Shown piece after piece: positions 24,365 through 64,000 of a DNA stretch of 64,000 bases. Source of the stretch: Thozetella sp. PMI_491 (lineage: Eukaryota; Ascomycota; Sordariomycetes; Chaetosphaeriales; Chaetosphaeriaceae); contig MU270042.1 in assembly GCA_021432635.1 (NCBI GenBank), forward strand, positions 121,577 through 185,576, written 5' to 3'. The notes under the pieces are model-generated. The model worked only from the letters and a program-made list of their open reading frames with translations. It searched no databases and was not told the DNA's origin. Numbering within the stretch: the stretch's first letter is position 1; every line of letters starts with the position of its first letter. A program made the position numbers and the translations under genes.

Positions 24365-25357
24365 TCAAACATACGTAGCTTGGAAACCATGTACCGTTAG
24401 CATGTAGCTCTTGACTTCCGAGAGCTTTCGCCCTTCCTCAAGGTACAGGCTTCTGATGATCTTCTTGTAAATATCCCCAAATATAGCTGGTTCGCTGCCC
24501 GTAGGCTCTGACTCCAGCTGCGGGCTGTCCTTGTCGGCCGGACCCTGGATCGGAAGCCAGAGGTCACCAGCGTCAGGATGCGTAACGTCGCCGAGCGCTT
24601 GTTGGCTTTGCTGCCATATGTTCGAGGAGAGCCGCTGGGCGGGTGAATACAGCTCTGTGGAGAAAGGTTTCAAGAGAAAGGGCTCTGAGAGGAAGTATTC
24701 TGAGACGAAGGGCTTCGAGAGGAACGGCTCCGAGGGGAGCAATGGCTCCGAAGGGAAGGTTTCTTGGATGAAGGGCTCCGAGACGGAGGGCGCCGAGGGG
24801 AGGAATGGCTCCGAAGGGAAGGGTTCTTGGACAAAGGGCTCCTCAACGGAAGGCTCCTCAACGGAGGGCGCCGAGACGAAGGGCCGGAAGGGTTCCGAGA
24901 GGAATGGATATAGCTTCAAGGGGAAGGGCTCTAGGACGAAGGGTTTCGGGATGAAAGGCTGCTGGGCGAGTAAATCATCAAGGGAGCTATCCTGACGTGG
25001 ATTTGTGCCAAGGGGAGCGGCTCTTTCTTGGCCGTCAGCGGGTTTCTCGTCATAAACGTTGTCAGTTAGAGAGATGAGTCGGTAGCGCTGGCTCAGACTT
25101 ACCTGGAGCTCCCGTGGCCTGTCCTTTTTTTCCCTCCCGGATGGGCGACGTAGGATTCCGCGACCGTGTGCATAGTTTAAATTTCCCAGTATGGGATCGA
25201 ATTGCCCGCAGCTGCTCACGGCGTGTCGCCGCAGGATCGATGAATCGTAAATGAGCTTCAGTAGGCAAATCCCGACCTCCTTCCCCTGAAAGTGCCAAGT
25301 ACTATTTCTAATGTAGCCCTCCGATCTGTATGAAACAAGCTGCCGATCAAAACACAA
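24365..25357 (-). CDS. Clr5-domain-type protein with EPF repeats, partial model
   Basis: The open frame starts at a TTG, so upstream exon(s) must exist. A possible first exon is the ATG frame at 25491-25258 (MPWRITVHGAFANLL). A GTAAGT after GAGCTCCAG at about 25103 suggests a further intron. The middle is a long run of degenerate five-residue repeats (PSEPF, LEPFP and similar, about 20 copies). The last 30 residues (YKKIIRSLYLEEGRKLSEVKS, then HGFQA) match the first two helices of a Clr5 domain. The frame ends at a GTATGT donor, so the rest of the domain should be in a following exon that I could not join with confidence. Clr5 proteins are fungal nuclear factors, and the low-complexity region could be an activation segment. 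Confidence 0.45.
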   Translation of the reverse strand: MCFDRQLVSYRSEGYIRNSTWHFQGKEVGICLLKLIYDSSILRRHAVSSCGQFDPILGNLNYAHGRGILRRPSGREKKDRPRELQVSLSQRYRLISLTDNVYDEKPADGQERAAPLGTNPRQDSSLDDLLAQQPFIPKPFVLEPFPLKLYPFLSEPFRPFVSAPSVEEPSVEEPFVQEPFPSEPFLPSAPSVSEPFIQETFPSEPLLPSEPFLSKPFVSEYFLSEPFLLKPFSTELYSPAQRLSSNIWQQSQQALGDVTHPDAGDLWLPIQGPADKDSPQLESEPTGSEPAIFGDIYKKIIRSLYLEEGRKLSEVKSYMLTVHGFQATYV

Positions 25358-35162: not shown

Positions 35163-36272
35163 ATGAAAGACGACGAGAGTCGGACGCTGCTGCGGCAGGC
35201 CGCCGCTAACGGGTACGAGGCTATGGTGCAGCAACTGCTCGAGAAGGGCGCCGATGTCGAGGCGAGGGGCGACTACGGCAGGACACCGCTACGGCAGGCC
35301 GCCGCCAACGGGTACGAGGCCACGGTGCAGCAACTGCTCGAGAAGGGCGCCGACGTCGAGGCAAGGGACGATTACGGCCGGACACCGCTGCGGCAGGCCG
35401 CCGCCAACGGGTACGAGGCTACGGTGCAGCAACTGCTCGAGAAGGGCGCCGATGTCGAGGCGAGGGACGACACCGGCTGGACGCCGCTGTGGTGGGCAGC
35501 CGGCGGCGGGCACGAGGCCGTCGTGCAGCAGCTGCTCGAGAAAGGCGCTGACGTCGAGGCGAGGGATAACTTCAGCCGGACGCCGCTGTGGCAGGCCGCC
35601 GCTAACGGGCACGAGGCTGTCGTGCGCCAGCTGCTCGAGAAGGGCGCCAGCATCGAGGCAAGGGACAACTCCGGCTGGACACCACTGCGGCAGGCCGTCG
35701 CCAGCGGGCATGAGGCTATGGTACAGCGGCTGCTCGAGAAGGGCGCCGACGTCAACGCGAAGGATAAGGACGATCGAACGCCGCTGTGGTGGGCAGCCGG
35801 CGGCGGGCACGAGGCCGTCATGCAGCAGCTGCTCGAGAAAGGCGCTGACATCGAGGCGAGGGACAAGGACGGTCGGACGCCGCTGTGGCAAGCCGCCGCC
35901 AACGGGCACGAGGCCGTCGTGCAGCAGCTGCTCGAGAAGGGCGCTGACGTCGAGGCGAGGGACAAGGACGGCCGGACGCCGCTGTGGCAGGCCGCTGCCA
36001 CCGGCCACGAGGCCGTCGTACAGCAGCTGCTTGAGAAAGGCGCTGACGTAGAGGCGAGGGATAACTCCGGCTGGACGCCGCTGTGGTGGGCAGCTGGCGG
36101 CGGCCACGAGGCCGTCGTGCAGCAGCTGCTCGAGAGAGGCGCTGATGTCGAGGTGAGGGACAAGGATGGCCAGACGCCGCTGTGGCGGGCCGCCGCTAAC
36201 GGGCACGAGGTCATCGTGCGGCAGCTCTATACACACGCTGGTCTCAGCGGCTCTGTGATGCTCACTAATTAA
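35163..36272 (+). CDS. ankyrin-repeat protein, 369 aa, eleven repeats
   Basis: Continuous ORF from ATG 35163 made almost wholly of eleven 33-residue ankyrin repeats with the core RTPLWQAAANGHEAVVQQLL and EKGADVEARD. Neighbouring units differ by a few residues (WWAAGGG, RQAAANG, WQAAATG), so this is a 99-bp DNA-level tandem array. It ends with a non-repeat tail (QLYTHAGLSGSV). In-frame codons before the ATG still look like ankyrin sequence, so the true protein may begin further upstream as part of a larger receptor. The C-terminal TLxTHA-like end resembles the shifted end of the 7-8 kb relic, indicating paralogy. Minus-strand frames across the array are shadows. Confidence 0.75.
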   Translation: MKDDESRTLLRQAAANGYEAMVQQLLEKGADVEARGDYGRTPLRQAAANGYEATVQQLLEKGADVEARDDYGRTPLRQAAANGYEATVQQLLEKGADVEARDDTGWTPLWWAAGGGHEAVVQQLLEKGADVEARDNFSRTPLWQAAANGHEAVVRQLLEKGASIEARDNSGWTPLRQAVASGHEAMVQRLLEKGADVNAKDKDDRTPLWWAAGGGHEAVMQQLLEKGADIEARDKDGRTPLWQAAANGHEAVVQQLLEKGADVEARDKDGRTPLWQAAATGHEAVVQQLLEKGADVEARDNSGWTPLWWAAGGGHEAVVQQLLERGADVEVRDKDGQTPLWRAAANGHEVIVRQLYTHAGLSGSVMLTN

Positions 36273-46115: not shown

Positions 46116-48118
46116 TCAGGCTATTTCCAGTGCCTGAATCTCTTGTGCCTTGTGTATGCTTTTCGAGCTAGCCTGGCGCCTTCTTGAGGTTCTTTTTGGT
46201 ACCCCTCCGGGTTGAGACGGTGCCTGTGGCTGGCTCTGCGATGACCGGTTACGCTTGTGGCCGGTCTGCCTTCCATCTGTAGACTTTGCCGACTTGATGG
46301 ACCTCCCACGCCCGGCCCCTAGCTGCGCCGGTCGACTGGGAGGCACGTTTGGCGATGGAATTACCACCGGGTTTGGCTGCGATGGCTGCATACTCCCATG
46401 CGTGGGCTGAGGATTTCCTTGTAAGAACGCCGTAGCTGCCGTTTTCGTCCAATCCATGGGAGTAGGTGCTGCCGAGTATGTCGATGTTGCTCCGTTTGCC
46501 TGGCTCGCCAGCAATGATACTTCCAGACCCGCTAAGGCGGCATTAGTCGTCGGGTTTTGCATGTTGAGCAGGTCGTAAGCCGTTGGACGCCGATCGATAT
46601 CGAAGGCGACCATAGATGCAAAGGGACGTGCTTGTTGGTGCCGGTTTAGACATGTCTGGAGGTACTCATACCACTGCTCCCACTCTCTAAATTCCACTCG
46701 CCTCTCGTTTTCGGGCTTGAGTTTCACCAAACACTCCACGACGGTCACGCCAAGTCCCCATATGTCTACCTTTGGCGTCTGCTCTCTGTTCTCCCGGACT
46801 TCGGGCGCCATGTACCATTCTGTTCCAACGATAGTATTTGTTGTATCGACGACCTTGGCGATCCCGAAGTCCGTCAAAAGGAACTCAGCGCCTCGGTAGA
46901 GGATATTCGCAGGCTTTATGTCTCGATGGATGATTGGCGGATCGCGAGTGTGGACGAAGTATAGCGCGGATAACATCTGCGACAGCATTATGTCGGTCAT
47001 GCCCAGCAGCGCCTCTGGTGCTACATTTCTAAGCTGCTGCAGCAAATCGTGGAGGTTACCTTCATAAATAGGCATGAAGATTTTAATGTCCTGTCCGATC
47101 TTGAATCCCTGGGTGTGTGTGTACGGCACGATGTGACGCTGATATAATTAGCGTGAGGCCAGCAGATCTATAACAGGGAGCTTACATGCTTCAATTCCTG
47201 GACCAAGTTCACCTCTTTTTCCACTCGTTTCCTGAAATCCCTCTCCGAATAGATCTTCCATTGAGGTACCTCTGCCTTGACGGCGACGATTTTGCAAGCG
47301 TGGTGCGCGCCGGTATACATGTCAACCACCCTGTGCACCTCACCTTGGCCCCCTCTTCCAAGCGGTCTGAGCTTCGTGATTTTGATCTCATCGTCCTCCT
47401 CAGGCTCAAGTGGGGTCCTGAACCGAGTATTATGGGGGTTGAAGGTGATCGTTGATGCAGACTTGTAGGTGGTTGTCAATCCTTGGGATTGGAGAGACTG
47501 CAAGCCTAGGGTGAAGATTCGCTGCAGGGTCCCTTCGATTGTCCGATCAGGGTCGGGTTGGCCCGCGAATGCCAACTTCTCTTTGGTGAGTGTCGCTTCA
47601 CCTTGACCATGCGTTCGTGGGATGAGGCGAAACTCGGCGTCACGCATTATGAAGATCCATTGGCGTTCGGCGGCAGGGCCTTTGGGGTCGGCATAGGGGT
47701 CAGGGCTGAGGACCACGACGCACTGCCGAGGGGTCTTCCATATCTGGGGAGCCCCCGGCCTCTCCGTTTTGTTGCCGTATTTGTCGGTCACGATGATAAT
47801 GTCGCAGAGTTCGGTGTCATTTTTCTCAGATATGTCGTGTAGGAGCAGCTCTCCGGTGTCTTTATTAAAGTCGAAGTAGCACTGGTCGTTTCTCGAGAAG
47901 CGTTTATTGAGAATTACATCGTTGTGTTCGCGCCGGCCGAAGCGTACGAGGTATGGTGGGCTTTTGGGCTGCTGGTCCAGTCCGATTCTCAAGACTGGCA
48001 CGTCTGAGTCGATGTGGGGGGCCCTGCGTACTCGGTCGCGGTTCGCGGGATCTTGAACGATCGCTGTGGCATATTTATTGTTTGGGACAAGGTAAAACAC
48101 CGTCCCTGGAGCGTCCAT
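46116..48118 (-). CDS. FHA-domain Ser/Thr protein kinase, 651 aa, two exons
   Basis: Exons are 48118-47186 and 47138-46116, joined by a 47-nt GT-AG intron, with ATG 48118. The FHA domain spans about residues 56-105 (YLVRFGRREHNDVIL, then SRNDQCYFDF), the phosphothreonine-binding fold. The kinase spans about 248-500: glycine loop GRGGQGEV, Lys in ACKIV, HRDIKPANIL, DFG in LLTDFGIAKV, an activation loop with VGTEWYMAPE, and DIWGLG. The intron falls just before HIVPY. A Pro/Ser-rich, basic tail (SRRRQASSKS) may direct nuclear entry. FHA kinases of the Rad53/CHK2 type act in DNA-damage signalling, but this arrangement looks like a divergent accessory family. It is divergently transcribed from a 683-aa charged protein. 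Confidence 0.85.
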
Positions 48119-48478
48119 CTTTGGGAAAGCATGTTTAAATGAGAAAAAGCCTCGAGCGGGCTGACCACGGGCCCAAGTGTATGTATCTATCTGGTGGCAT
48201 TAGACGAAGCGAGGGGAGGGGGCAGGAGGGGAAGTGAGGGGACTTGATTGGAAGAAGCTTAGCGCTGTGAAAGGATTGGCTGAGACGGAACATGGGGAAA
48301 GCAGGCAACCGTCGCCCGCGTTTTGCAGAAAAACTACCGAGCCAGAAAACAGTCCCTTGCTCATCAACATCCTTAATTATACCCTTCACCATCGTCCCAA
48401 CATACTTAATCTCGCCGGCCACGAGCCTTTGTACCATAATACATATCCTCAATCAATTCCTCCGTCATTGTCACTTCG
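48119..48478. promoter_or_regulatory. bidirectional intergenic region of FHA-kinase pair 1
   Basis: 360 bp between the two divergent ATGs. It holds a purine-rich block (gaggggagggggcaggaggg) and a CCAAT-type box (ttgattgg, about 48244). It likely serves both genes, which suggests coordinated expression. Confidence 0.5.
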
Positions 48479-50530
48479 ATGGCTCCACACACGCGCGCAA
48501 AGCGCAGACCCAACATCGCGTCAACAGCCGCCTCCAACGATGTATATCCTTCATCCAACGGCGACAACCTCAACGGCAACCACGAGCCCAAGAGTCTCGG
48601 TCACGAGACCGGTGATCCGAAAAGCCAGGAAACAGAGATACCGGCACCTTACTTGATCCCAGTGGAGGGTCCCGATGGGCGAATAATTGGGCGAATACCG
48701 TTACCCTCGCCCCCGCCAGAGCCATATGATCCCGAAACCTATGCTACTTGGTATCGGAAGCATTATGGCGAGGAGGCGTACGCAATGGTAGAGGGCGAGC
48801 AGATGCTAGTACCACAAACCTACGATCCTGATACGTACGATCTCGATGGCCGAATGCCATGGACGCCCGAACCGGAGCCATATGATCCCGAAACTTATGC
48901 GGCATGGGGTCGGAAGCGCTTTGGCGAAGAGTGGTACGAATTGCGAAAAACCATGCTTGAGGAAAGGAACATTTATCTTCAGTATGATGGGGTCTACAAG
49001 GAACGCCAGAAAGCCTTGCGGATAATGGAACACGAGGTCGAAAGGCGGCCGTTTGAGCCAGGACAAAGAGCTGGGCGGATGCGTGACGCAGGCTGGAAAC
49101 GATTGTGGTCTCGACTTTCGAAGGAGCTAGGCATCACCAGCAATTCCGCATCTCCAACGCCGTCAAAGGACAACGACGACAGCGACACCGACCTCAGCGG
49201 GTACAACACATACGCCCCAACCCCCGAGCCTCGCGAACCGACGCCTCTACCCGACGATCCATGGGAACGGTTGGAGTACGACCGAAGACGTTTCCACTGG
49301 GATGAGGAGCGGTATCACTTCGAGAGGGTCTTCCTCAAGGAGGCCCTCATCGACGGGGCCAGGACGCGACGTGAAGACGAGGACGGCGACAGGCAAGCCT
49401 GCGAGAAGCGCGAGGTAATGGAAAGCTTTCGCTACGTGGATCCCTCTCGGTTCTCCCTTGAACAGCGCCACTTTCAAGATCACATCGACCTCCCCAAGAA
49501 GGGCTGGACGCGGGAGGAGATTGTTGCCAAGTATGAAGCTGATGTGGCCCTGCATGAATGGCGAAAGAACAACCCTTCACCCAAACGATCTGGTGGTTTC
49601 GGCGAGGCAGAGACCCCGGAAGAGAAAGCCGCATCGGCTAGCTGGCGCCAGGAGTTCGATAACGCCTGGGTTCGCTTCTACGGATCGCACACCCCCAAAT
49701 TGCCGGAGCATACCGAGGACTACGGTGTAACGGAACTCTGGCGCAAAGGTACCCACGCTCGCGTCTCCCGCCAGCAACAGCGAGAGGCCCTGCTGTCTGA
49801 CGCCACGGGCGATGCTTCATCACGTGCAGAATCGTTGCAGAGGATTCAGGACGAAGAACGAAGAGACCGTGAGGCCCTAGAGAGGGCCGTTGAAAAGGCA
49901 GGAGAATTGACAGAAAAGGCAGAAAAAACGCGCCGCCTGCCGCCACCACAAACTCAGGAGGAAATGAATCATAGATTCCGTGTGTGGGATGAACTCGATG
50001 TACCTCTCAAGATCCAGAATGACCTGGCTCGCTTGTATGGTTTCGGCGAAAGACCTGCTGAGCGCGAAGCAGTGCCGCAGCCGCCAGCAACAGCGCCTCG
50101 ACCAGCGAAAGACACTTCTCACAAAACTCGCAGCGGTCGAATCAGTAAGCAAGCACCAACGCACGAGAAAGCCTCACCATCAGATCGAAGGTGTCGCGCT
50201 CCCGAACGTGACATGCCCGAGGGGCTCAGAGACAACACACGGACGGCACCCCAGCGTCAAAGGAGGCAACGCAAGACCTACGAGAAGGAGCGCTCAAGCC
50301 GAAGGCAAGCGGGGAAAGCACCTGAGTATGGGATGCTAGGAGGAGGTGAAACACGACCCTCCATACGACAGCCCTCGAACACACGCCGAACGAGTAGCTC
50401 AGGCCCTCGTAGCGGCAGGCTGTCTAAGAAGCCAACGGCTGCTAGGAACGTGAAACCCCAAGGGATTGTGAAGTCCAGGCAGACAGGGCCGGGCCGTCCA
50501 AAGAGGCCGGCGAAGGGATCGAAGGGCTGA
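48479..50530 (+). CDS. charged, Trp/Tyr-rich hypothetical protein, 683 aa (partner of FHA kinase 1)
   Basis: Single-exon ORF from ATG 48479. The N-terminus is basic (THRAKRRPN), then two copies of an EPYDPETYATWYRKHYGEE-type block (about residues 78-105 and 130-155) give an internal duplication. A long helical acidic/basic region follows (FHWDEERYHFERVF, then WTREEIVAKYEAD). The C-terminal 150 residues are Arg/Lys rich (GPGRPKRPAKG is AT-hook-like), suggesting DNA or chromatin binding. No enzyme signature is visible. It begins 360 bp from the divergent kinase. The combination suggests a kinase substrate or regulator, which is an inference from context. Confidence 0.75.
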   Translation: MAPHTRAKRRPNIASTAASNDVYPSSNGDNLNGNHEPKSLGHETGDPKSQETEIPAPYLIPVEGPDGRIIGRIPLPSPPPEPYDPETYATWYRKHYGEEAYAMVEGEQMLVPQTYDPDTYDLDGRMPWTPEPEPYDPETYAAWGRKRFGEEWYELRKTMLEERNIYLQYDGVYKERQKALRIMEHEVERRPFEPGQRAGRMRDAGWKRLWSRLSKELGITSNSASPTPSKDNDDSDTDLSGYNTYAPTPEPREPTPLPDDPWERLEYDRRRFHWDEERYHFERVFLKEALIDGARTRREDEDGDRQACEKREVMESFRYVDPSRFSLEQRHFQDHIDLPKKGWTREEIVAKYEADVALHEWRKNNPSPKRSGGFGEAETPEEKAASASWRQEFDNAWVRFYGSHTPKLPEHTEDYGVTELWRKGTHARVSRQQQREALLSDATGDASSRAESLQRIQDEERRDREALERAVEKAGELTEKAEKTRRLPPPQTQEEMNHRFRVWDELDVPLKIQNDLARLYGFGERPAEREAVPQPPATAPRPAKDTSHKTRSGRISKQAPTHEKASPSDRRCRAPERDMPEGLRDNTRTAPQRQRRQRKTYEKERSSRRQAGKAPEYGMLGGGETRPSIRQPSNTRRTSSSGPRSGRLSKKPTAARNVKPQGIVKSRQTGPGRPKRPAKGSKG

Positions 50531-52918
50531 GCACCATCAACACCAGAGTGGCAGAGCCGGGAATAGGGAGTGGGATGGCATGATCAACCTACAGCAGATC
50601 ATCCGACTTACGCTCCGGAACCCCGCAGACCTCTCCCCAGCTGACGGGCATCTCTGCGACCCCCCCGCTCACACTCCACCCCTCCCTCTCACCTCTGGCA
50701 GACCCTAAAAATCAACTTACCAACTACTGATCAAACGTTGTTCTCTCCTCCAACGGCCAGATCGCGCGCCAGCCAGCCACCCTCTCGATCCTTACCGAGA
50801 TCCGCCTGGACCCCTGGGTTAGTTCTGAGTTCTGAGCAGCCTCCCGCCCTCTCTCGTCGCGCCTCGTCGCGCCTCGCCGCACCTCCATCCCGGCCGGCGC
50901 CCTCCTGCCGTGGCCTTCACCCCGCCTTCACCCCGCTTCTGACACACCCAGGAGCCAAAGACGAGACATTTGCTGACACTGCCCTCCTGGCCAGATCGCA
51001 AAACCCCATCCACCGCGACGGCCCGACGGCGCGACAGCGCGACCACCCGCCCAACGCTCCCACGCCCGCCGCAGACAAGGACGCGAAGATGGAGCCCCCC
51101 GGTTCCCGCCCCCCCGGCAAGAACGGAAAGCTTCTGGGCAGCGAGAGCGGCTCCGGCGTAGGCATGCCCGCGCGCCGGCGGCCCCTCGGCGCCGTGACGC
51201 TCGATGTGAAGAGAATTGGTACCCCGTTTTGCGCGAGCCCTGGCAGCGGCTTCTCCAACATCCTCACCCACTAGAAGCAGGCCGACGACACCGCGGTACA
51301 GCGGCGGGGACAGGACCTGCTGCCTGAGGACATCAACTACGAGCAGCCGCTGTACGACCTCCGCGACAAGTTCGGTATCGGACGGCACGAGGCGCTCTCC
51401 GCGCAAGCCAGCGGTGGCGCCTATGACGAACCGATCCGCGAGGCCGGCACCTCCGCACCCTCCTGCTGCAGATCTACACGGGGACCGTCCACCTCCCAGG
51501 CTATGACCTGCCGGCCCTGAAGCTTGGCGTGATGGAGCTCGCCGCTGCCCGACCAGGCGCCGACGAGGCCACCGACGAAGCGGCTTACGCCATCCCCGGG
51601 GTGAGCAGCGCCAGCGCCATGGCCGAACCCCAGGAGGAAGTCCCAAGCCCGCAGGCGCGCTCGTCCACGACGCCCACCCCATCAACGCCCACCCTCCCAG
51701 CAGCCAGCAAGCGTCGCCCGGCCCTCCGTCGCCCAACCCTTCGTCGTCCGACCCTTGGTCGCCCCTTCGGCCCGCAGCAACAGCAGCGACGAGTACGTGC
51801 AGTTTCTAGGCAGCCGGCCGGCCAGCAGCGCCGGAGATGATAGTACCGCGCCAGACGCCATGGTCGACCGCCGCCACAACCCCACTCACTGGTGAGCAAC
51901 CCTGACTTGTCACGGAGCGACCTAATCCTGACAAAGTTGCCTAGATAGCGAAGAGAGAATTTTACACTGGGTGCGATGTGTGGTTGAGGAAGCGTGCAAA
52001 ACTGCCGAATTCGACGGCGACGAAACTGATTCCCAGCCATCGGAACGAGACCCGGCTGCACTTAGCCTGGATGTGCTTCGATACATGGGGATACATGTAC
52101 ATACACACTGTACATACCGATTGAAAAGTTCCAGCACAGCACAAAGTGTCTGTCCAGTGAACAGCACATCATCTACAACTACTACTTCCACGCCTTCAAA
52201 ATTATATCACATCCATCTCAACTCTTTTCTCTCTTAAATCATTTAATATTAAAGATAAAATATATAATGGATAACTGATGATAGAAACGGTTGGCAAGGG
52301 CAGTCATGGATTAATGCTAAAAGTATGTAGCTTTGCGCTAAGGTTGATACCGCAGGGGAATTGCGAACTCTATGTTGTCCAGGAACCTGGCTCCCATGTT
52401 GACGCGACCAGAACGTCAAGGGCGCGCGACAAGTATGCGACTGCACTCGCACCGTGCCTCGAGCTGGGCGCGACCGTGTCCATCCCTAGATGGTGTCTAG
52501 GATGGATAAGATCCAAGGAACCTCTGTCGTCTTCTGGCCAGCCGACATGGCAGGCCGTGACAATGCCGCAGTCCGGCCTGGCAGCCGGAAACGATTGGAT
52601 GTGCACGTGCCGTGACGCAGTGTGGCTTGCTCCCGGCTTGTACAACCTAGCAGAGCATCGCCACTGACACAAGCGTCGCTCCCGTGCAGCTCTCGGCATT
52701 CCATCTCTGTCAATCCAGCACGTCTCTCTTCGCACTTCTTTCAGTCAGAAGGGAGCACTGCGCAGTCAAAACACCCCTCCGAGCCCCTTACTGCAGACCG
52801 ACAGCCTTTGCCGAAGCCCTTTACCCCCGACGCCTGTGGCCCCCGCAGGATTAACCATCGCGAAGTTTCCACAAGCACCTCGGCATCGCAAACAGATACA
52901 ATCTTTACGCAAACGAAA
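50531..52918 (+). other. GC-rich stretch with only degenerate frames
   Basis: Both strands are open for hundreds of bases because of GC bias. I see no motif or intron that would pick one. A separate entry covers 51089-51840. Confidence 0.4.
51089..51840 (+). pseudogene. possible broken gene in GC-rich sequence
   Basis: From ATG 51089 a frame reads MEPPGSRPPGKNGKLLG and on to a stop at 51272-51274. In the same frame a folded-looking segment follows (LLPEDINYEQPLYDLRDKFGI), and then a shifted frame reads LLLQIYTGTVHLPGYDLPAL. This could be one gene with a stop and a frameshift. I do not recognise the family. GC bias alone could also open the frames. Confidence 0.2.
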
Positions 52919-53431
52919 ATGGCGGGCAAACGCCCTTCCAACCAAAAGCGAAAGCCAACGACCTCTTATATGTTCCCGTGGCTTCAAAGCGACATCTCGA
53001 AGGCAGTCTCTGCTGCTAACATTCGCTCGAGGTGGATCAACACAGAAAAAGACCGCAAAGATTCCAACAACGAATACTCGACCAACGTGATGGGTACGTT
53101 TACATGCAGCAACGTTGGCTGTCCTACACGTGGCTGGAGCAGCAAGACGGTGTCAATATTGATCAGGGGATATCCCGAGAATGGGTACAACGCCGTTATA
53201 TTCAACCAACGCTGCAAATCCTGCAATGAGCTCGGCAACCTGACACTTGACAAGGACTCGTATGTCGAACGAGTTGCGTACCGGCTTAAGAAGTGGGCAG
53301 GCGTTCGGATGGAGCAGCAACACTACGCCGGCAAGGCCGGCCGCCCACATATGCGTGAGCTATGCGAAGGTTGTAAGCGAGGTTATTGTCGAGCAGGAGG
53401 CACAGCTAGGACGACGAACTGTATGAACTGA
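52919..53431 (+). CDS. 3CxxC-type zinc-binding protein, 170 aa
   Basis: ORF from ATG 52919, preceded by a long in-frame but low-quality extension. Three CxxC-type pairs mark the fungal zf-3CxxC domain: FTCSNVGCPTRGW, RCKSCNELGNL and LCEGCKRGYCRAG, covering about residues 58-160. The conserved SSKTVSILIRGY and YNAVIFNQRCKSC blocks between them fit the family. Its exact role is unknown, but it is a zinc fold probably used for protein or nucleic-acid contact. The N-terminal 55 residues are basic. The 3' end is tandemly duplicated (see the next entry). The domain call is strong and the function is not known. Confidence 0.8.
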   Translation: MAGKRPSNQKRKPTTSYMFPWLQSDISKAVSAANIRSRWINTEKDRKDSNNEYSTNVMGTFTCSNVGCPTRGWSSKTVSILIRGYPENGYNAVIFNQRCKSCNELGNLTLDKDSYVERVAYRLKKWAGVRMEQQHYAGKAGRPHMRELCEGCKRGYCRAGGTARTTNCMN

Positions 53432-53613
53432 AGGTTGGGAAGGGGAATCTTCTCGACGTTATGGAACGAGGACAAGCGGAGGCTCAGTAAGTGAGGTTAT
53501 TGTCGGAAGGAGGCACAGCTGAGATGACGAGTTAGGATGACAAACTATATGAGCTGAAGGTTGCGAAGGGGGAATTTGCTCGACGTTATGGAAATGAACA
53601 TGGACAAGCGGAG
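53377..53613 (+). repeat. tandem duplication of the 3CxxC gene's 3' end
   Basis: The segment from gaggttattgtcgagcagga to acaagcggaggctcag repeats once more with substitutions and small indels, ending acaagcggaggttg near 53613. Unit about 110-125 bp. The second copy is non-coding. Confidence 0.75.
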
Positions 53614-53849
53614 GTTGTACGAAATTGTCAAGACAAATTTCCAATCAAGTGTGCGGAGCCTTTTCCTTAACCAACGCATTTGCCCGCATTCGTCAGTTCA
53701 CTCTGGTATTTGATAATTACTTGCGTTGCCTACTGAACCCCAGTAGGTCTTGGTTGTCCCAGCAAAGCCAATTCTCCGGTGATAAGATCTCCCTTCGCCG
53801 CGGCCAGTCTTATCAACCTCAAATCTACTATAAGCAAGTTATAAGCAGA

Positions 53850-54195
53850 AGATAGGGCTATGCTTTTGCCACCCTATCGAACTAAGTCTAGCCTTGTTAA
53901 TCAGCCTTAACTAGCTACTATTAATAGAATTCCAGGTATAGAGATAATGCCTTAGTTTAAGGAAAAACCTATAAAGACACTCTAGGTTATCTTCTATTTA
54001 AATAGGTAGGTAACAGTCTTAATCTTATTTAATACATACATACAAAAGATAAAATAATATCTTAAGGCTAGAGCTAAAGGGGTTAACAACAAAGGTCCCT
54101 CTAATAAATAAGAATGTATTCTCCCTCTACTGCCAGGACCTTCTCAATCCTCCAGCTGCTTGCCATAATAGCTACAGTATATAAACCCCTTATTA
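53850..54195. other. AT-rich, RIP-like tract
   Basis: Base composition drops sharply (taactagctac, aataatatcttaagg and similar) compared with the GC-rich genes on both sides. TpA-rich sequence of this type is what RIP-mutated repeats look like in ascomycetes. No coding element can be read in it. Confidence 0.5.
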
Positions 54196-54200
54196 CGTAG

Positions 54201-54436
54201 TAAACGCCTACTACAGCTTCCTTCTCCGGGGAACCAACATCAAGTACGAGTATGTCTCCGGGAACACGGACATCAGGGAGGACATTGAGCTAGTGGGCGA
54301 GATGCTGGCCCGTAGACAGATCCGAGGCGTCTTCACCGAGGTTAGCTTTGACGACGTGGATAAAGTGAGGGCCGAGAGCCAGAAGGCTGCCACTGGTAAG
54401 GGAGGCATCGGGAAGATAGTCTTTACCTTCCCTTAG
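54201..54436 (+). pseudogene. C-terminal fragment of a zinc-type alcohol dehydrogenase/quinone oxidoreductase
   Basis: About 75 residues in one frame (LLRGTNIKYEYVSGN, then an EDIELVGEML segment, ending KGGIGKIVFTFP and a stop) match the C-terminus of medium-chain NAD(P)H oxidoreductases. There is no upstream catalytic region, because AT-rich sequence replaces it. It is a relic of a host-type gene carried in or damaged with a repeat. Confidence 0.5.
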
Positions 54437-54949
54437 GAAGAGGACTTGGAAGGGAATGCTGGTCTGTTTTGAAAGGGGGAAGGCGGCTAATTCTGTAAAA
54501 GTTACCGCTTAGTTCTTACCAACTAGACTTTAGGGGATTATGAGAAGCAATATCGGGAGCAGCCTTATACTCTCTCTTAGAAACGGCAAACTATAAGACG
54601 ATGTCCCTGCTGCTGTATTAGGCTGGCATCTGGCGGCCTAATTTTTCGATCTAACAGTCTGCATATGTGTATTATCAGACCACACAGCAAAGGGTGCATT
54701 CGGATTTAGTAGGACAAGTACTGTAACACGTCCCCATTATAGTCGATATTGTGAATGTCCATGCTCTCAAACTGCATGTTGGTGTAGGGATACTCACTAC
54801 CTTGTCTGTGCGCACAAAAAGGGCATTATAGTGGCTGGTATAAAATGGATAATAGGGCCGATATCCACCAAATCCTGGCCATTTCCGTGCACTGCTGTGG
54901 CTAGGACTGAATAGTATACAGATTAGTCCACCAAGTACTAGCCACAGTA

Positions 54950-55045
54950 GTGGCTAGAATACAAAGCGGCTAGAAGTGGCTAGAATATAAAGTGGTTAGA
55001 ACAGAAAGTGGCTAGGACACAAAGTGGCTAGTACACAGATTGGTT
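54950..55045 (+). repeat. short tandem repeat (agtggctagaa-like, about 19 bp)
   Basis: About five imperfect copies of a gtggctag plus a/g-rich unit. Gene-free sequence continues to 56132 except for the palindromes described separately. Confidence 0.6.
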
Positions 55046-55967
55046 AGGTAGATAAAGGCGTTTTAGCCCCGCGGGGAAGCAGTGGACGCGTTTTGGTGCC
55101 TACCGGGAGCCAGGTGGTGTGGTGGGGCAACGTCGCGGCGAACAGCGACGAAGGGCCGCCAGAAACAGCGGCAAAGGGCCCGCGATGCACAACGCAGAGA
55201 GAGCCGGAATTCTCCATAAGACGTGTATTTACAAGAGACATCGCATCAAGCTAGAGAACTCAATGTCCTTGACGAGAACTAAAGCTCGGGCGATCTCTCG
55301 ATGCGGAATGCCCTCCTCTTCGGTATTGATCTCCGAATCAAGCTCGGCGACTTTGTCGGTTCTCTCCAGGGTGTCTACGATAATATACTATACTTAGGGG
55401 ACCGGTCTCCGGTCCTCGCGGCCAGGGACAAGTAGCTCTGAACAGCCTCCTGCGTATCACTGTCATAGCCATTCTTCTAGGCCAAGCCATTCACCTTGAA
55501 TTTGACGTATATTCTCACGGCCGCAGAGGGGCTTCTCCAGGGAGGCTTCTCCTTAGGGCATGTGTGCTTATGGATCACTTTCTGTAGAGAGAAATAGCCG
55601 CTGTGGGTGCATCAATTTGCGGACGAACGCCCGGAGTCTCCGGCGGATATCACGCGGGGCGTTACGCCGGTAAGGCCCGGCCAATCGCCCATCGAAGCCG
55701 ATCAGAACTAGCCCCGCGGCCGGACCGCACCACACGATTGGCACACCTTATGCAATGGAAGTGATAGAACTGACACCTAGAGGCTGTGCAGTGGCGCTTA
55801 GCGGTGGAGTTCTTGCCACTGGCAGTTGGCAGCCTTTTCTACTTCGGGGGTTTCATTTGCCTTCAGCACTAGAGCTACTTGCACGTACAATACGAATGAA
55901 TTGTTAGCGACAGTGGCAGACAAGACTTAAAATAGATAATTTGAGCCCCCTCCGCCGGGCGTGCTGG

Positions 55968-56063
55968 GGCTCCCTAATCATTAGGGAGCCACGGTCCTTT
56001 TTAATTAACAGCCCCACTGCTCCACCATCTGGTGGCTTCCATGGGTCCCTAATCATTAGGGAG
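55968..56063. repeat. paired palindromic elements (ctccctaatcattagggag)
   Basis: ggctccctaatcattagggag at 55968 and gtccctaatcattagggag at 56045 are near-perfect inverted repeats about 76 bp apart. A close relative (tcccctaaggattagggagg) occurs at about 492. They could be hairpin-forming MITE ends or binding sites. Confidence 0.6.
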
Positions 56064-56132
56064 TGAGCTCTATATCCACCTCTGCCCCCCCCCACCATCT
56101 GCGAATCCTTCTTTTCCTCAATTCATTTCACA

Positions 56133-57522
56133 ATGGACGCCGCACGCCTGCCACCCGCAGCGGCCTACGGCCAGGAACCGCAGACAGCCCCGATCCCAAC
56201 CCTCGATTCCCTACTAGAGCTAGACAAGCTGACTTTGCGCGAAAAAGACAAGGCGAGTGGGCTCTTCTAATTTCTCTGCATTATCTAATCGGCCCAGGTC
56301 TTCGATTGCCTTCTCCGACTTCTAGCGAATCCCAACGTCGCTCAATTACTCGAAAGCGACCCTGGCGCTCAGGACCGGTTCCTGAGAGCCGTCCAGACAC
56401 TTCCATGTACGACTTATCTAACCCCAGCGGCAACACCTACCAGCGCGGCGTGTTATTCTCCAGAGCGAACTTCATCGCCTGACAGAGTGAGTCACGTTGC
56501 CGAACACGGGACAGACATTATTGAAGGAGTTTGCGAAGGCGGACAGGATGAAGGGGATCTCCACGGCAGTCCGTTGAAGCGCAAGCAATCTGACAGGACA
56601 TCGCCTGAGGTGCTCGCGACCGGAGCTGCCAAGAAACGACGCAGGTCCAGACGGGAGCACGCTATCGCGCCAGACTTCGGCCAGGAAATATTTGCCAAGC
56701 TTCCTCCCTTCCTACGTGCAGCATTCTGGAGGATGAAGGATGAGGGCGCCCGCAACGCTTGGCTCTTCTTCCGTTCTCGCAGGGAGACCTGCGAACTGCG
56801 TCTCGCCACAGCATCTGATCCAAGGCCCAGGCAGCTCCGAGACCTCATCGAAAACTGGATCGATATGGAAAAATCGCTTCAAGGCTCCGCTCTCGTCTAT
56901 CGAGTCTCCAAACGCGTTCATCTAGTCGAGCTGGCTGCCGCGAAAGAGGCCATGCAAGGGAAGCCAGAGATCATCCATGAGCAGCTGACTGACCTCGTCT
57001 TCCCAGAGCTCATCACTTACAAAAGGCCGACCAAGAGAGGATCGAGCCCATACTACCAAGCAAAGCGCAAGTTGGAGTACTGGCTACGCCTAGGGACGCC
57101 GCTGCTCCGACTCGTCGAGTGCTACGGCTACGCCATCCTCCTACTCTTCCCAGACGTTCTGACGGATACAGTGTAAGTATCACCCTATCGCTGCACCGCT
57201 CCTCGATAGGCTCATTATCAGGTTTCATAAAATGCGTCGTGAGCACATTGCTCCCATTGTAGACTACATCCGAACGTGCTATCCAGAGCTTAAAGAGCAG
57301 CTCAGCGGGCTGTCTGCTCACTTTCCCGGTATTGTAGAGCAAGAACCGCCGCCACAACTTCTCGTACTCGAGACATTCCCATCCATTGAGCAGCTCGCGA
57401 GTCGTTCTTTAGAAGAGCTCTTTCGATTCTCTGACTGTTTCCGACTACCTGGCTGTGATGGTCGGCAACTAGAGCCGCCCCACGCGACGCTCGTCAGTGA
57501 CAAGCTCGCACTTCCATCGTAG
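56133..57522 (+). CDS. hypothetical protein, 431 aa, three exons, GC-AG intron
   Basis: Exons are 56133-56252, 56298-57172 and 57222-57522, with a frame of 1296 nt. Intron 1 is 45 nt with a GC donor (AAG then GCGAGT), and intron 2 is 49 nt, GT-AG. The N-terminus is disordered to about residue 30, then a helical block reads KVFDCLLRLLANPNVAQLL. A Ser/Arg-rich linker with a basic signal (KKRRRSRREH) follows. A large folded domain (about residues 170-400) has LPPFLRAAFWRMKDEGARNA, a Tyr/Arg-rich stretch and helices to IEQLASRSLEELFRF. No family recognised. It sits about 570 bp before a LINE. Confidence 0.65.
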
Positions 57523-58097
57523 ACTGTCCAGGAACTGCCCGGATTGCAGTGCACTCTAGCATACCTCGTCGCAGGAGGTCACTGCGATCAGCTTCGCTCC
57601 CCGCTTAGGATATACTGAGGGCTTCAAAGTTTCATTAAGGCTGTTATATGGACTCGTTACATGGAGTATAATTATATTTGAAAGAGCAAAGAAAATGCCC
57701 TGAGTGAGGCTTCAGAGAAAGAGGAAGATGAGCAACTGCGGATTAAGCTTGAGGATGAGCGACAGAAGATTTAAATTGAGACGATGGAAGCGCTCAGAAA
57801 GATCCTGTAGATTGATATGCCCTCACTTGACTTTATAGTATATAGTTGAATCTCAGGCGGAACCGTTCTCCCAGGCGGCAACCCCCTACCAGCGAACTCA
57901 CCTTACCAGGCGAACTCACCCTACCAGGCAAATTCACCCTACCAGGCGAACTCACCCAGGCGACCCCTTCCTCCCAGGCGAGCCCCTCCACTAGGCGACG
58001 GGCGCTATTGCGTGCTAGGACGGCGGCTATCTCCTAGCTCAGAAGTTATGACGTGCTAGGACGGCGGATATCTGTCTTAGAATCTACATACTAGGAG
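57523..58097 (+). other. gene-free lead-in to the LINE with relics and an 18-bp repeat
   Basis: A Lys/Glu-rich fragment (EEDEQLRIKLEDERQKI) with no start lies at about 57718. At 57891-57979 about five imperfect 18-bp copies of ggcgaactcaccctacca occur. LINE sequence begins near 58098. Confidence 0.45.
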
Positions 58098-60820
58098 GGC
58101 GTCCCCGAACAAGGCGCCTGGGACAGACGGGATCCCGAACGCGATCCTACACCAGACACTCGACATCTTGCTTCCCAGTCTCTGCGCCCTATTTAATGCT
58201 TGCCTTCGCCTAGGATACTGCCCTGCGCATTTCAAAGAGGCCATCACGGTCGTCCTCCGGAAACCAGGAAAAGACGACTATACCCAGCCCAAATCCTATC
58301 GGCCGATCGCTCTCCTCAACACGCTGGGGAAAGCACTGGAATCCATAGTGGCGAACCGACTCGCCTACCTCGCGGACGCTCACGGACTCCTCCCCAGCCG
58401 CCACACCGGGGGTAGGAAACTCGCATCAACCGACCATGCAATCCACTTCCTCCTCCAGCGGATCCACCAGGCGTGGGAGGACGACAAGGTGGCCTCCCTA
58501 CTACTGCTCGACGTATCTGGAGCCTACGACAACGTGTCGCGAGAGCGGCTGCTCCACAACCTCCGAAAGCGCCGGGTCTGCCCGGCGATCGTAGGCTGGG
58601 TACCGTCGTTCCTCAGCGACCGCTCCACCACGCTCAAGCTGCAAGAATACACAGCACCGTCTACGCCCATCCAGACAGGCATCCCGCAAGGATCCCCCGT
58701 CTCGCCGATCCTCTACCTCTTCTACAACGCCGACCTCATCGAGGCCAGCAAGACAGAAGACATAGAGGCGGTGAGATACATTGACGACGTTTCCATCCTC
58801 GCCGTAGGAACGACCGCCCAGCATAACTACAAGACCCTGAAGGGCCTCCACCGGAAGGCAGAGGAGTGGGCGAAGAAGCACGGTTCCCAGTTTGCACCGG
58901 CAAAGTACGAGCTGGTTTATTTTACACGGGACCCCAAGGCGAACAGCATACACGCACTCCGCCTACCACACGCCACGATCCAAGTATCTCCCTCCTGCCG
59001 CTACCTGGGGGTCCAGATAGATACCAAACTCCGGTGGGACTACCACCGTGAGAAGGTAGAGGCAGCGGCAACAAAACGACTCTTGGCCCCCTCGGCCCTG
59101 GCGTCCTCCACATGGGGCACAGGTTTGGTCAACCTCCGGCACGTATACCGCGCGATGATCGTGCCTCAGATGCTCTATAGATACTCAGCGTGGTACGCTG
59201 CCGGCAACGGCCCGAAAAGCAGAGGCAGCTCGATGACCAATACTATCCGAAAGATCCAACAGCACGCCGCCCAGATCGTCACCGGCGCGTTCCAGACCAC
59301 AGCAGGGGCTGCGGTAGATGTCGAAGCCAACCTGCTTCCGGTGCAACAGCAGCTCGAGCAGACGGCACTGGAAGCCACCATACGCATCCGGACCAGCCCG
59401 CTATACAACGACATGGCGCCGACAACACGCGATAGGGATAGGCTAGCACGGGATACCCAGAGCCCACTGGACCGTTTCTCGACCATCCTAGAACACAAGC
59501 AGGGCCTCCAGCTCGATCGGCTGGAGAAACGACAACCACACGTGGTGCCGCCATGGTGGACGCCGCCATCCGTCCGGATAAACGACTCTGCGATCGAAGC
59601 CATCCAGGAGCACGACGCCACGGACCCAGGAACATTCTGGATCTACACCGACGGCAGCGGGATCAACGATCATGTAGGCGCGGCGGCGGTGGCGCCAATG
59701 CTGTGCAACAGCGACATCCCGCCCAAACGCCTTCAGTACATAGGCACCTCTAACACCTCCACAGTGTACGCAGCGGAGCTCAAGGGCCTTGTGCTGGCGC
59801 TGTAGATAGTACAGGATATACATGCCGAAACTAACAGCCCCGGCTGGTGCGCCATCTTCACCGACAACCAGGCCGCCATCCAGGCGCTGCGGAACCCGAA
59901 ATGCCCATCTGGACAATACATCCTCGCGGAGGCAATCCAGGTCCTGGACGAGATCCGGAGCCAAGGATGGAACCTCTAATTCCGGTGGATACCCGCACAT
60001 GTCGGAGTGCCTGGTAACGAAGCGGCTGACCGAGCAGCTAAGGAAGCGGCCGGCCTGGGCTTGAGCGGGCAACTAATGACCGTACGGACCCTGATAGCCA
60101 CCACGAAGACCAACATCTGCGCGAGGATGAAGGACGAGTGGGATATGGCCTGGGAGTACGTGTAACACGGCTGGGAGCTCTATAAGCTTGGCGTCTAGCC
60201 CGGGAAGGATATCCTGAAGATCTATAAAGGAACACACCGAGTGATCAGCTTAGTGATCACATAGATGCGCACCGGCAAGATCGGCCTGCGTGCGTACCTC
60301 CACGCCATCAACAAAGCGGACACCGACCAGTGCGAGTGCGGCTACGGACCGCAGACAGTGCGACACATCATTCTGGAATGCTGGAAATGGACGGAAGAAA
60401 GACACTGGATGTGGGCAGGCAAGGCTCCATGTGTGGATATCAAGCGCATTCTCTGTAGCTCGTCAATGGCGGTACAGGCAGCCAAGATGCTCCTTTGCAT
60501 AGGGCTCTTGAAGTAATTCAGGGCGGTTCTGTCCACAGTACTTCAATACTCAGCGTAGACGAGTGATATTAGCAAACAGAAGGCGAGGAGGGCCAGGAAA
60601 GGCCTGACGAGTGCATAGAGATAGAACAGTTAGAATGATTGTCAGTAGAGAGCCAAAGTTGAAGCAGACGGGAACCCACTCCAGCGAGAAGAGCCAAGTT
60701 TGACAGCAACGCAACTCTCGCTGGAGTGTTGGACCTCCCCGAAGCCAGAAACAGAGGCGCCTGTATTGGTAGTTGTACGCTGCATAGCCGCCCCAGGGCG
60801 GCTGGGACAGTCTATGAATT

Positions 60821-60858
<38 letters not shown>
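58098..60858 (+). mobile_element. 5'-truncated LINE (non-LTR retrotransposon) with RT and RNase H
   Basis: Similarity begins inside the reverse transcriptase ([14 protein letters not shown], then [20 protein letters not shown]). It continues through [33 protein letters not shown], the catalytic box [10 protein letters not shown], a thumb region, an RNase H domain ([19 protein letters not shown] and [19 protein letters not shown]) and a C-terminal CxC-type zinc motif ([18 protein letters not shown]). The RNase H and layout suggest the Tad/I group. The endonuclease part is missing, so it cannot be autonomous. Stops at 59803, 59977, 60163, 60196 and 60262 are TAG or TAA, several in contexts that read naturally as CAG or CAA. 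It ends in an (AATC)n tail. Confidence 0.85.
60820..60858 (+). repeat. (AATC)n LINE tail
   Basis: About ten tandem copies of the tetranucleotide at the 3' end of the LINE, typical of non-LTR elements with simple-repeat tails. Confidence 0.85.
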
Positions 60859-60902
60859 GCCTGCGTCCTGGGGAAAAAACACCACACAAAGCTCAGAACA
60901 CA

Positions 60903-60912
60903 NNNNNNNNNN
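60903..60912. other. 10-N assembly gap
   Basis: Ten Ns split the LINE flank from the 3' end of FHA kinase 2, so neither boundary can be read. Confidence 0.99.
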
Positions 60913-62389
60913 TGGCTGTCGACAGGAACTGAAGTACCTCGTTGGGTCTCTTCCCCAGGTCTTCTCGGAGTTTCTTGATGATCTTTTTACCCCAAAAGGT
61001 CCCTTCGTCTCGGTACTCTTGTTTATGTCGTGGAAGTCCGCAGAGCAGCTTAAACACAACCACGCCAAGAGACCAAATATCCACAGCAGCCGTGTACCTC
61101 TTTTTCTCTCTCCCGCCGGATCGAAGGTATTTCTTCATCTCCAATATTTCCGGTGCGGCATACTTCCAAGTGCCGCAGATGGTTTTCCAGTTGCCACTTT
61201 CTCGTCTCTCCCTCGACAGACCGAAATCACCAAATTTAACATGGATGTCGCCAGCATGTCGATACTGGACAAGAACGTTCTCCAATTTGATGTCTCGGTG
61301 CACAATTGGCGGATCGCGTCCGTGGAGGTACACCAGCGCCGAGAGAAGCTGGCGCAGGATCTGTACGCACTCCTCGGCTGATATGTACTCTTGGTCGTGG
61401 AGAGACCCACTAGGAACATATTCCAAGTACAGCTTTGGCCATGGGTCATTCTTCGCGTCCAGGAGCCTCACGATGTGCTCCTGGTGACCTATCAGATTGC
61501 GAACTGCGAAGGAGGGGATGTGTAAGCTTACGTGAGTGATTCGTCTCATAATATCAGCTTCGCTCCTCCACGCACCAATATCGACGTCCTTATCCTTAAT
61601 AGCTCTCTGGGAGGGTTGCTTAAGGGCATACTCCTCCCCGGTACTGACATTCCAGAAATGAGTCACGACCCCGAAGCTACCTTCGCCGAGCTTCTTCCGG
61701 AGGAAGATTGCACCTGTGCCGGGCGTATGTGTTCCAGTAGGACGTTCCGTCTCCGGCGGGAGGTCCAGTCGGCCGAAGAGATTTTCAGTATCCACTGTAC
61801 CCTGTCTGAACTGGTCGACATTGTCCATGTACAGCTGTGAATTCACGTCGTGGTGGGAGACGACGATCTGGAACTTGAGGTCTTTGACGACTTCAATAAC
61901 GATTGTCATCTTCTTCTCAGGAACTCCATGCCCGCCGACGATCCAGCGGAAATCGCGTCGCCGCCCTCCTTCATTGTCGTATATGACCTCGGTTCCACAG
62001 AGCGAGCCTAGATCCTTCACGATGGGGCGGTACTGTTCGTCGAGCGTCAAGGCAAAATGATGGGAGCTGATGCCGCGCATCCCAGGTAAGACAACGTCAC
62101 TATTCTCGTCACATCCAAACACAAAGCCATAGGGAGTTTTTGGGCCATTGCTGAACCTCAGTTCAAGACGTGGAAGATGGTCAAAGGGACCGCCTCCGCG
62201 CTGCTCCGGTTCTTCTGTCGGTGCCCTGTCGCGACGGCCAATCTCCGGCTCGGAATACTTCGGAGGAACGTGGTTCTTGATATCTTCAATCGCACTCTTT
62301 GCTGCAGATCCCCCACGACCGTCCTTGCCATAGAAGGGATACAGGCAAGCAATCAGGTCTGGGTCTGCCATCATGGGAGGTAACTCCAT
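60913..62389 (-). CDS. FHA-domain Ser/Thr protein kinase 2, partial (475 aa seen)
   Basis: Exons are 62389-61532 and 61480 to the gap at 60912. The start is ATG 62389, although the open frame runs 147 codons further upstream without a good start. The FHA domain spans about residues 83-150 (PYGFVFGCDENSDVVL, ISSHHFALTL, then DLGSLCGTEVI). The kinase spans from about 230: GEGSFGVV, Lys in YALKQP, HRDIKLENVL, DFGLSR, CGTWKYAAPE and DIWSLGVVVFKLL. The sequence runs into the gap after KRPNEVLQFLST, so the end of the kinase domain is missing. The 51-nt intron lies just before HIVRLL, the same place as in kinase 1. It is divergent from a charged partner gene. Confidence 0.8.
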
Positions 62390-62734
62390 TGAGGTGAAAG
62401 TAGGGAAGAGAAGAGGAGTCGAGACATATGAGCGGCTGCGCCTAGTCTTTATTGGAATAACAACGCAGGCAGGCCACCAAGGAGGTCGGCGTACGCTCAA
62501 CCATATCCAATGATGCCGCATGCTTGCCAGGCAGCCAAGGCTGTTTGAGCGCCTGGCTGATCTGATTGGTGGTTGATCGGCCAGGCGTCTTTCCTTCCCC
62601 GCTCCCAAAATTTGGAGAGTGGAACGCTCCGTTCTTGCCTCAGGCTGCCCCCAATATTTCAAATGAAAGGCCGAGCTGCCCCGCCCAAGCTCAATAACAT
62701 CTATCTTCCAACTTTCCTCTGCTTTCGCGACGAC
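62390..62734. promoter_or_regulatory. bidirectional intergenic region of FHA-kinase pair 2
   Basis: 345 bp between the two divergent ATGs, almost the same spacing as in pair 1. It contains a CCAAT-type box (ctgattggtgg, about 62568). Confidence 0.5.
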
Positions 62735-64000
62735 ATGCCGTCCTCGGAGCCTACAACCCCGAAATTGTCCGTTGACGACATCCTCGCGTTTAGCGAGGCA
62801 GAGCTTGTCCAGTATATGAAGCAAAACCACTATCCCGACCGCGGTTTCGACCTTGACTTCGCAGGTTGGGAAAATCTGCCGAAAGACCAGCGAGACCAGC
62901 TGGCTGAGAGATTGAGGTGATTATATGCCTTGTTATATTTCGTCCACCGCTAATACCTGGATAGGACAGGAGCGCAGAAAGCGAACGACGCGGCCGCATC
63001 CCGCCAAGTTGATCCTGGCCAACTCGCCGCACAATTGCAGGAAATCGCCGACAACCTAGACGCGCTACCAAAAGCTCTATCTCGACCGTCGCGCCGTTCG
63101 AGATCTCCCACTGTCGAAGTTGATTGGGACGAAGAGGGGAGGAAGTCCGAGATCGTAGCTTACAATACCCTCGTCAATGACGGCGGCCAGCCAGGGTACC
63201 CGATCAATCTCCTGGAAGACGTCTCCAAGAACCCAGTTGAGCATCGTGAAATACTGCGCCCTTGGCAGGACTACCCCGATGCAAGCACACCTCACTGGAG
63301 TGTGTTCCAGACACAACTGCGGAGATGGCAAGATTTCCGCATGTGGCAGGAAGACAACAGAGAGATGTTTAATGAGGAAGAGGAGTTTGCCGCGTTTGTC
63401 GAGAAGGAGAAGCGCCGAGATGCTGAGGACAGAGCTACGATATGGCGCCACATACAGATGACGGAGAATCAGTGGCTCAAGAAACTTGAGGCTGAGTTTA
63501 AGAGGCAAAGCCAAACCAATACTGATGGTGGGGTTGAAGGATTTTCTGCCTTTGTGAAGGAGACGAAGCAAAAGCGCCTGAAGAGTGGGCTCGCGTGGCC
63601 AGGGATGACAGAGGATGAATATCTAAAAACGCTTCGGAACCGGTTTAATCTGCAGCAGGCTCGTCGCTTTTGGGAGAATTTTCACTGGTTACGGGAAGAC
63701 AACGGCCGTGGCGGGTTTCCTGAATACCTCGACGAAGTCAAGCGTCGCTTCGCAAAACACGGCTTCACACGAACATTCCAGCTCGACGAAGACCCGAAGC
63801 GACAAGACAAATTAACGACATGGATCGAATACCTCAACTACGAGTACTCGTGGTACGACAAATACTCTAGAGACGTCATACGCCTGCAACCACAGTACGA
63901 CGAGGCCTGGCAGAAGCTCGTGGACTCGGGGGTGTTGAGGCCTTCAGAGACGGACGAGTATCTACGCAGTGACGAATCTGGATTTAGGGATGAGAGTGAA
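62735..64000 (+). CDS. charged, Trp-rich hypothetical protein (partner of FHA kinase 2), runs off the window
   Basis: Exon 1 is 62735-62916, followed by a 48-nt intron (GTGATT donor, GCTAATAC branch, ATAG acceptor). Exon 2 starts at 62965 and stays open to the window end. The N-terminus is a short helical block (SVDDILAFSEAELVQYMKQN). The rest is highly charged and aromatic (WDEEGRKSEIVAYN, WQDFRMWQEDNREMF, LARFWENF-like and WYDKYSRDVIRLQ segments), similar in style to the partner of kinase 1, with no enzyme motif visible. The shared Trp/Glu/Arg bias and the divergent position suggest an equivalent role. Sequence similarity between the two partners is not obvious by eye, and the C-terminus is not in view. 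Confidence 0.7.

Follow-up and report, generated by a model that had tools for sequence, protein, structure and literature searches.

Matched pairings of FHA-domain kinases and partner proteins in Thozetella sp. PMI_491 suggest a candidate two-gene signalling module

Two divergent gene pairs, each composed of an FHA-domain kinase gene and a gene for a partner protein, were found in a window of 64,000 nucleotides (C28:121577-185576) in the genome of Thozetella sp. PMI_491 (72.3 Mb, 157 contigs), which we take to be a Sordariomycete. The two pairings, K1-B1 and K2-B2, are inherited together across Pezizomycotina, and their matched nature suggests a candidate, undescribed two-gene signalling module. 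Judging from the sequences, each cassette is predicted to encode a Chk2-like accessory kinase, with an N-terminal FHA domain and a C-terminal kinase domain, and its dedicated client or adaptor. We assign this reading a probability of roughly 0.58 and take it as the first choice, with roles in genetic conflict as the second. An earlier note had described the two head-to-head cassettes, and its coordinates and spacings were right; its bounds of 46116-64000 also take in unrelated DNA between the pairs, including a 3CxxC zinc-ribbon ORF (52622-53431) and a reverse-transcriptase ORF.

The K1/B1 pair lies at 46116-50530, with 360 bp between the genes (48119-48478). The FHA-kinase gene K1 (46116-48118, minus strand) consists of the exons 48118-47186 and 47138-46116, separated by a single 47-nt intron, and encodes 651 amino acid residues that match the deposited protein P0182 end to end (651/651 residues). 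Its FHA domain (47813-47947, minus strand) was weak, scoring 15.9 bits and short of the Pfam cut-off of 20.7, and contains the conserved pair G61-R62; G61, R62, and D67 did not vary across 20 aligned K1-type sequences. The protein kinase domain (46566-47374, minus strand), detected with Pfam, is interrupted by the intron and retains the K, HRD, and DFG elements. The partner B1 (48479-50530, plus strand) is a protein of 683 residues without a Pfam family, containing a helical core and a disordered basic tail (residues 529-683; 50063-50527, plus strand) that is common to some B2-family proteins. Family conservation and the predicted structure placed its linker Thr-Pro sites, T248 and T255 (49220-49243, plus strand), in a low-confidence loop. 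The deposited P0001 (B1), P0182 (K1), and P0183 (K2) were all from one contig of 887,635 bases, compared with 815,779 bases for C28, which indicates that the assemblies differ, and P0001 and P0183 are shorter gene models than B1 and K2.

The K2/B2 pair extends from 60913 to 64000 and beyond, with 345 bp between the genes (62390-62734). K2 (60913-62389, minus strand, start at 62389) is an open frame until a gap of ten Ns (60903-60912), and its C-terminus lies outside the window sequence because these Ns cut the frame. The K2 FHA domain (61985-62122, minus strand) passed the Pfam cut-off with 27.9 bits and carries Cys at the position of the phosphate-binding Arg, and part of the kinase domain was located by Pfam at 61007-61696 (minus strand). 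With their pieces combined, the kinase domains of both K1 and K2 scored far over the Pfam cut-off. B2 (62735-64000, plus strand), 787 residues in full, has an intron at 62917-62964, and its last 1146 bp lie beyond the window; family conservation identified T110 (63110-63112, plus strand) in its linker. Pfam yielded no domain above the cut-off in B1 and the window part of B2. A reverse-transcriptase (RVT_1) ORF and an (ATTG)n-type repeat were observed at 58168-60870, just past the N gap, and what looks like a LINE remnant abuts the missing 3′ end of K2. Another C-terminal piece of K2 was observed beside Ns at C28:15852-18995, with 98% DNA identity to the K2 end in the window (151 bp); it runs on into a 265-aa ORF resembling, by eye, the tail of K2 relatives.

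The shared layout, the nearly equal spacing, and the related tails would be accounted for if both cassettes had arisen by recent block duplication and subsequent divergence, and the earlier note had taken the repetition as a sign of a unit that duplicates as a block. However, DNA comparison of the cassettes gave a single 40-bp matching stretch, and the words that the two intergenic regions have in common were not above chance. No blastp match below E 2.6 was obtained between B1 and B2, and hhalign of 45 B1 against 60 B2 family members aligned the tails alone (probability 84.7); the profile comparison of the partners that the note had advised thus related the basic disordered tails and detected no similarity between the cores. 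The kinase domains of K1 and K2 share 30.6% identity. A tree of 74 kinase domains placed the 28 K1 rows and the 19 K2 rows each in a single clade, without clear support for a sister relation between the two, and the branch separating K1 and K2 from most kinases of their own genome had support of 58/81. Recent block duplication is therefore very improbable for these two cassettes, which, as far as sequence comparison can tell, are two old pairings with kinases in two separate clades. Elsewhere, cassettes do seem to have been copied as a block, as in Chaetomium strumarium, in which two K2-B2 pairs were found on different contigs.

Like the Rad53/Chk2 family (an FHA domain joined to a CAMK-type kinase, with PRD-4 as the Neurospora member), K1 and K2 have an N-terminal FHA domain followed by a kinase domain, and the match of P0183 (K2) to Rad53 (5xzv) covers both parts (residues 84-428). 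Unlike that family, K1 and K2 group separately from the other FHA kinases of the genome, each in a clade of its own and with weak deep support, and they are patchy in distribution and linked to a partner gene. By eye, K1, K2, and the FHA kinases on contigs C59 and C13 all have an intron following the same His.

The predicted structures of both partners showed high-confidence helical cores followed by the disordered tails, that of B2 starting at about residue 537; the tails are basic and the cores are near neutral. Comparison of the B1 and B2 predictions with PDB structures gave no trusted relative. A B1-type tail was present on 6 of the 120 listed B2-family proteins (P0063, P0134, P0138, P0142, P0163, and P0179), and tails were therefore either exchanged between the families or lost from other B2 members.

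Protein searches yielded 61 relatives of B1 and 207 of B2, 120 of the latter being listed, and a kinase query made of the N-terminal halves of K1 and K2 matched 106 proteins, among which those with contig data comprised 65 K1-type and 40 K2-type proteins (P0286 was left out). Sharing of a contig was inferred from an equal size of the longest reported contig, which was used as a fingerprint. A K1-type match shared the contig with 24 of the 61 B1 matches, including the merged model P0030, and true two-protein K1-B1 pairs accounted for 23 of the 61 (22 outside the Thozetella genome). Similarly, a K2-type kinase was on the same contig for 14 of the 120 listed B2 matches, 13 of them outside the Thozetella genome. 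In the control, wrong pairings were found for 1/61 and 1/120, both being the window's own contig, where all four genes are located. The recurrence of both pairings in other fungi indicates more than a chance association. The search of other fungi for FHA kinases with similar partners, which the earlier note had proposed, thus recovered both pairings at the level of shared contigs, and its view of the repeated pair as a unit was borne out, in the sense of a conserved pairing, by the matching of kinase type to partner type and by the mirror trees described below.

Six of the pairs were on contigs of at most 11.9 kb. Both locus tags were visible for 10 species and were consecutive in six: Anthostomella pinea (094020/094030, numbered in tens), Fusarium musae (008166/008167), F. 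fujikuroi (10060/10061), Emmonsiellopsis (003021/003020), Hirsutella minnesotensis (11466/11467), and Phialemonium thermophilum (7838/7839). In F. oxysporum f. sp. cepae, Colletotrichum abscissum, and Beauveria thailandica, the two genes shared a contig with tags 6-16 apart; in Colletotrichum asianum, they were on different contigs. In P0030 from F. xylarioides, K1 residues 1-207 are joined to B1 residues 102-620 in one gene model; if this model is right, both genes are on one strand, which argues against a universal head-to-head layout. Deposited models joining a B2-family protein to a JmjC domain (P0145, Fusarium sp. NRRL 66182) and to ankyrin repeats (P0135, Zalerion maritima) were also observed and are possibly merged neighbours.

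Many partners were found without a kinase. Among single-sequence B1 clusters on contigs of at least 8 kb, K1 was present in 18/36 and absent in 18/36, and 106 of the 120 listed B2 matches had no K2; K2-paired B2 matches numbered 10 in the first 30 listed and 0 in the last 30. These pairless cases may be real, or the kinases may be unannotated, odd in length, or too diverged for a word-based search. The earlier note had regarded related kinases without such a partner as evidence against the unit, and one such kinase was found: a third, divergent FHA-like kinase (L065, C83:119037-122690), which grouped with K1 at 99/92 on a long branch; the 6.5 kb read at this locus contained neither a match to B1 or B2 nor a B-like ORF. 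The genes upstream of it are presumably SDHAF4-like and Rxt3-like. The FHA kinases on C55, C59, and C13 likewise had no B1 or B2 match nearby.

Mirror trees were compared for 24 K1-B1 pairs, 23 of which were defined by a shared contig and one, from F. fujikuroi, by tags, with P0030 left out. The distances in the K1 and B1 trees correlated with r of 0.77, compared with 0.50 for the top of 2000 permutations, and 9 of 21 splits were common to both trees. One common split, supported at 99/99 for K1 and 100/100 for B1, separated Thozetella, Fusarium, Metarhizium rileyi, Anthostomella, and Xylaria venustula from the rest, including two other Xylaria; some other K1 and B1 splits were in conflict and well supported on one side. 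For K2 and B2 (14 pairs), r was 0.84 against a permutation maximum of 0.65, with 6 of 11 splits in common. In these comparisons, kinase and partner behave as one inherited unit, in the sense of a common history and not of contact, because linked genes share their history whether or not their products meet. For the same reason, the mirror trees are not decisive on the alternative that the genes are merely linked, by a shared two-way promoter or by residence on the same mobile segment, with no action of either protein on the other. The intergenic regions of 360 and 345 bp and the B1 histories, which ignore the species tree, are in line with mere linkage, but kinase type and partner type correspond in two partner families whose cores showed no similarity in sequence comparison, and we consider this alternative unlikely.

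The catalytic residues were mostly kept: K276, D384, and D401 in 60/63, 34/50, and 35/37 of K1 relatives, and K257, D366, and D388 in 38/38, 19/21, and 20/22 of K2 relatives, respectively, some rows being partial proteins. The two classes differed in FHA residues that we take to be phosphate- or phosphothreonine-binding, with Arg in 59/62 K1 relatives versus 7/38 K2 relatives and Ser in 42/59 versus 37/38. A Thr site, in most cases Thr-Pro, is conserved in both partner families within a poorly ordered linker before a core helix; T110 of B2 was kept in 54/57, T248 of B1 in 37/38, and T255 of B1 was Thr in 28 or Ser in 11 of 41. The tails contained RxxS/T sites no more commonly than shuffled sequences, and proline-directed sites were likewise unenriched. 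The earlier suggestion that the FHA domain reads phosphothreonine, with the partner as a phosphorylation target, fared differently in the two cassettes: reading of phosphothreonine is plausible for the K1 FHA domain, where the conserved linker Thr fits docking, and doubtful for that of K2, where the Arg is mostly lost; the basophilic tail sites lend the suggestion no weight.

In the client-adaptor reading, each kinase would bind its own partner. In the K1 class, the FHA domain may bind the partner through its conserved linker Thr-Pro once this site is phosphorylated, and in the K2 class, the FHA fold would be kept with binding probably not via phosphothreonine. The helical core of the partner would act as a scaffold, and its basic disordered tail may direct the complex to a target, possibly nucleic acid or chromatin. 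This reading is favoured by the matched pairings, with wrong ones confined to the window's own contig, by short shared contigs, consecutive tags, and mirror trees, by the retention of most catalytic residues, of the K1 FHA Arg, and of the linker Thr in both partners, and by the confident helical cores and the basic disordered tails, including the B1-type tails on listed B2 proteins. Against it stand the frequent loss of the K2 FHA Arg, tail RxxS/T sites at the level of shuffles, the many partners without a kinase, P0030, and the fact that linkage alone can produce mirror trees.

The B1 tree was made from the 39 of 61 matches with placeable names, with orders and classes assigned to the species and the assignment of Trematosphaeria checked. 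It rejected one Sordariomycetes clade (p-AU 3e-51) and one Xylariales clade (p-AU 1e-48), and the B1 of the Dothideomycete Trematosphaeria pertusa was nested among Sordariomycetes (97/82). This protein, P0010, shared 70% identity with Thozetella B1 across 484 columns, and no K1 match was found on its contig. Either horizontal transfer or old duplication and loss would explain the conflict. Four F. oxysporum K1-type clusters (P0226, P0229, P0252, and P0267), which are alleles or paralogues, differed by 12-20% in protein sequence, with the other clusters of the species 96-99.5% alike. Partial or decayed pieces were found elsewhere in the Thozetella genome: K1-type on C110 (93.8% DNA identity over 601 bp) and C71, K2-type on C42 and at C28:17352, B1 tails at C28:11790 and on C19, and B2 at C28:193049. 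These pieces suggest that the modules have been gained and lost.

Such an accessory distribution, the tree conflict, and the F. oxysporum spread would suit a conflict module in non-self recognition, immunity, or killer-protector systems, in which one protein harms or triggers and the other restrains, or the kinase is a decoy or guarded target. Parallels are described: at vic loci of filamentous fungi, genes that lie together also interact (PMC7849911), and CHK2-like kinase domains in 12 Sordariales NLRs have been discussed as integrated decoys (PMC12258605). The cassettes resemble vic/het gene pairs in having linked genes at one locus and differ in that Pfam found no NACHT, NB-ARC, or HET domain in K1, K2, B1, the window part of B2, and the 45 B1 and 60 B2 family members, and no nuclease or other known effector domain in the partners. 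Spok spore killers have a kinase domain in an accessory family crossing species (PMC6660238) and combine nuclease and kinase-like parts in one protein, whereas K and B are two genes, with a kinase of the protein-kinase type and no nuclease domain found by Pfam. Moreover, paralogy could account both for the discordant B1 tree and for the divergence among the F. oxysporum clusters. We therefore regard a conflict role as possible and hold it tentatively. A broader proposal, that Pezizomycotina harbour mobile two-gene modules in which a Chk2-derived FHA kinase has been paired repeatedly with swappable helical partners sharing an exchangeable basic tail, and which serve self/non-self recognition, immunity, or selfish inheritance, is speculative and, taken as a whole, unlikely.

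With the client-adaptor reading, fungal signalling would gain a kinase-based two-gene module that is passed on as a block and whose history departs from the species tree, together with two partner families without a Pfam domain. From the matched pairing, it can be predicted which proteins bind each other, and this provides testable kinase-client pairs. If the conflict reading were true, fungal immunity and allorecognition would extend beyond HET and NLR genes. The window also contains two ankyrin-repeat ORFs (7104-8222 and 35163-36269), a DUF7924 ORF (12100-13818), and a Clr5 ORF (24368-25357).
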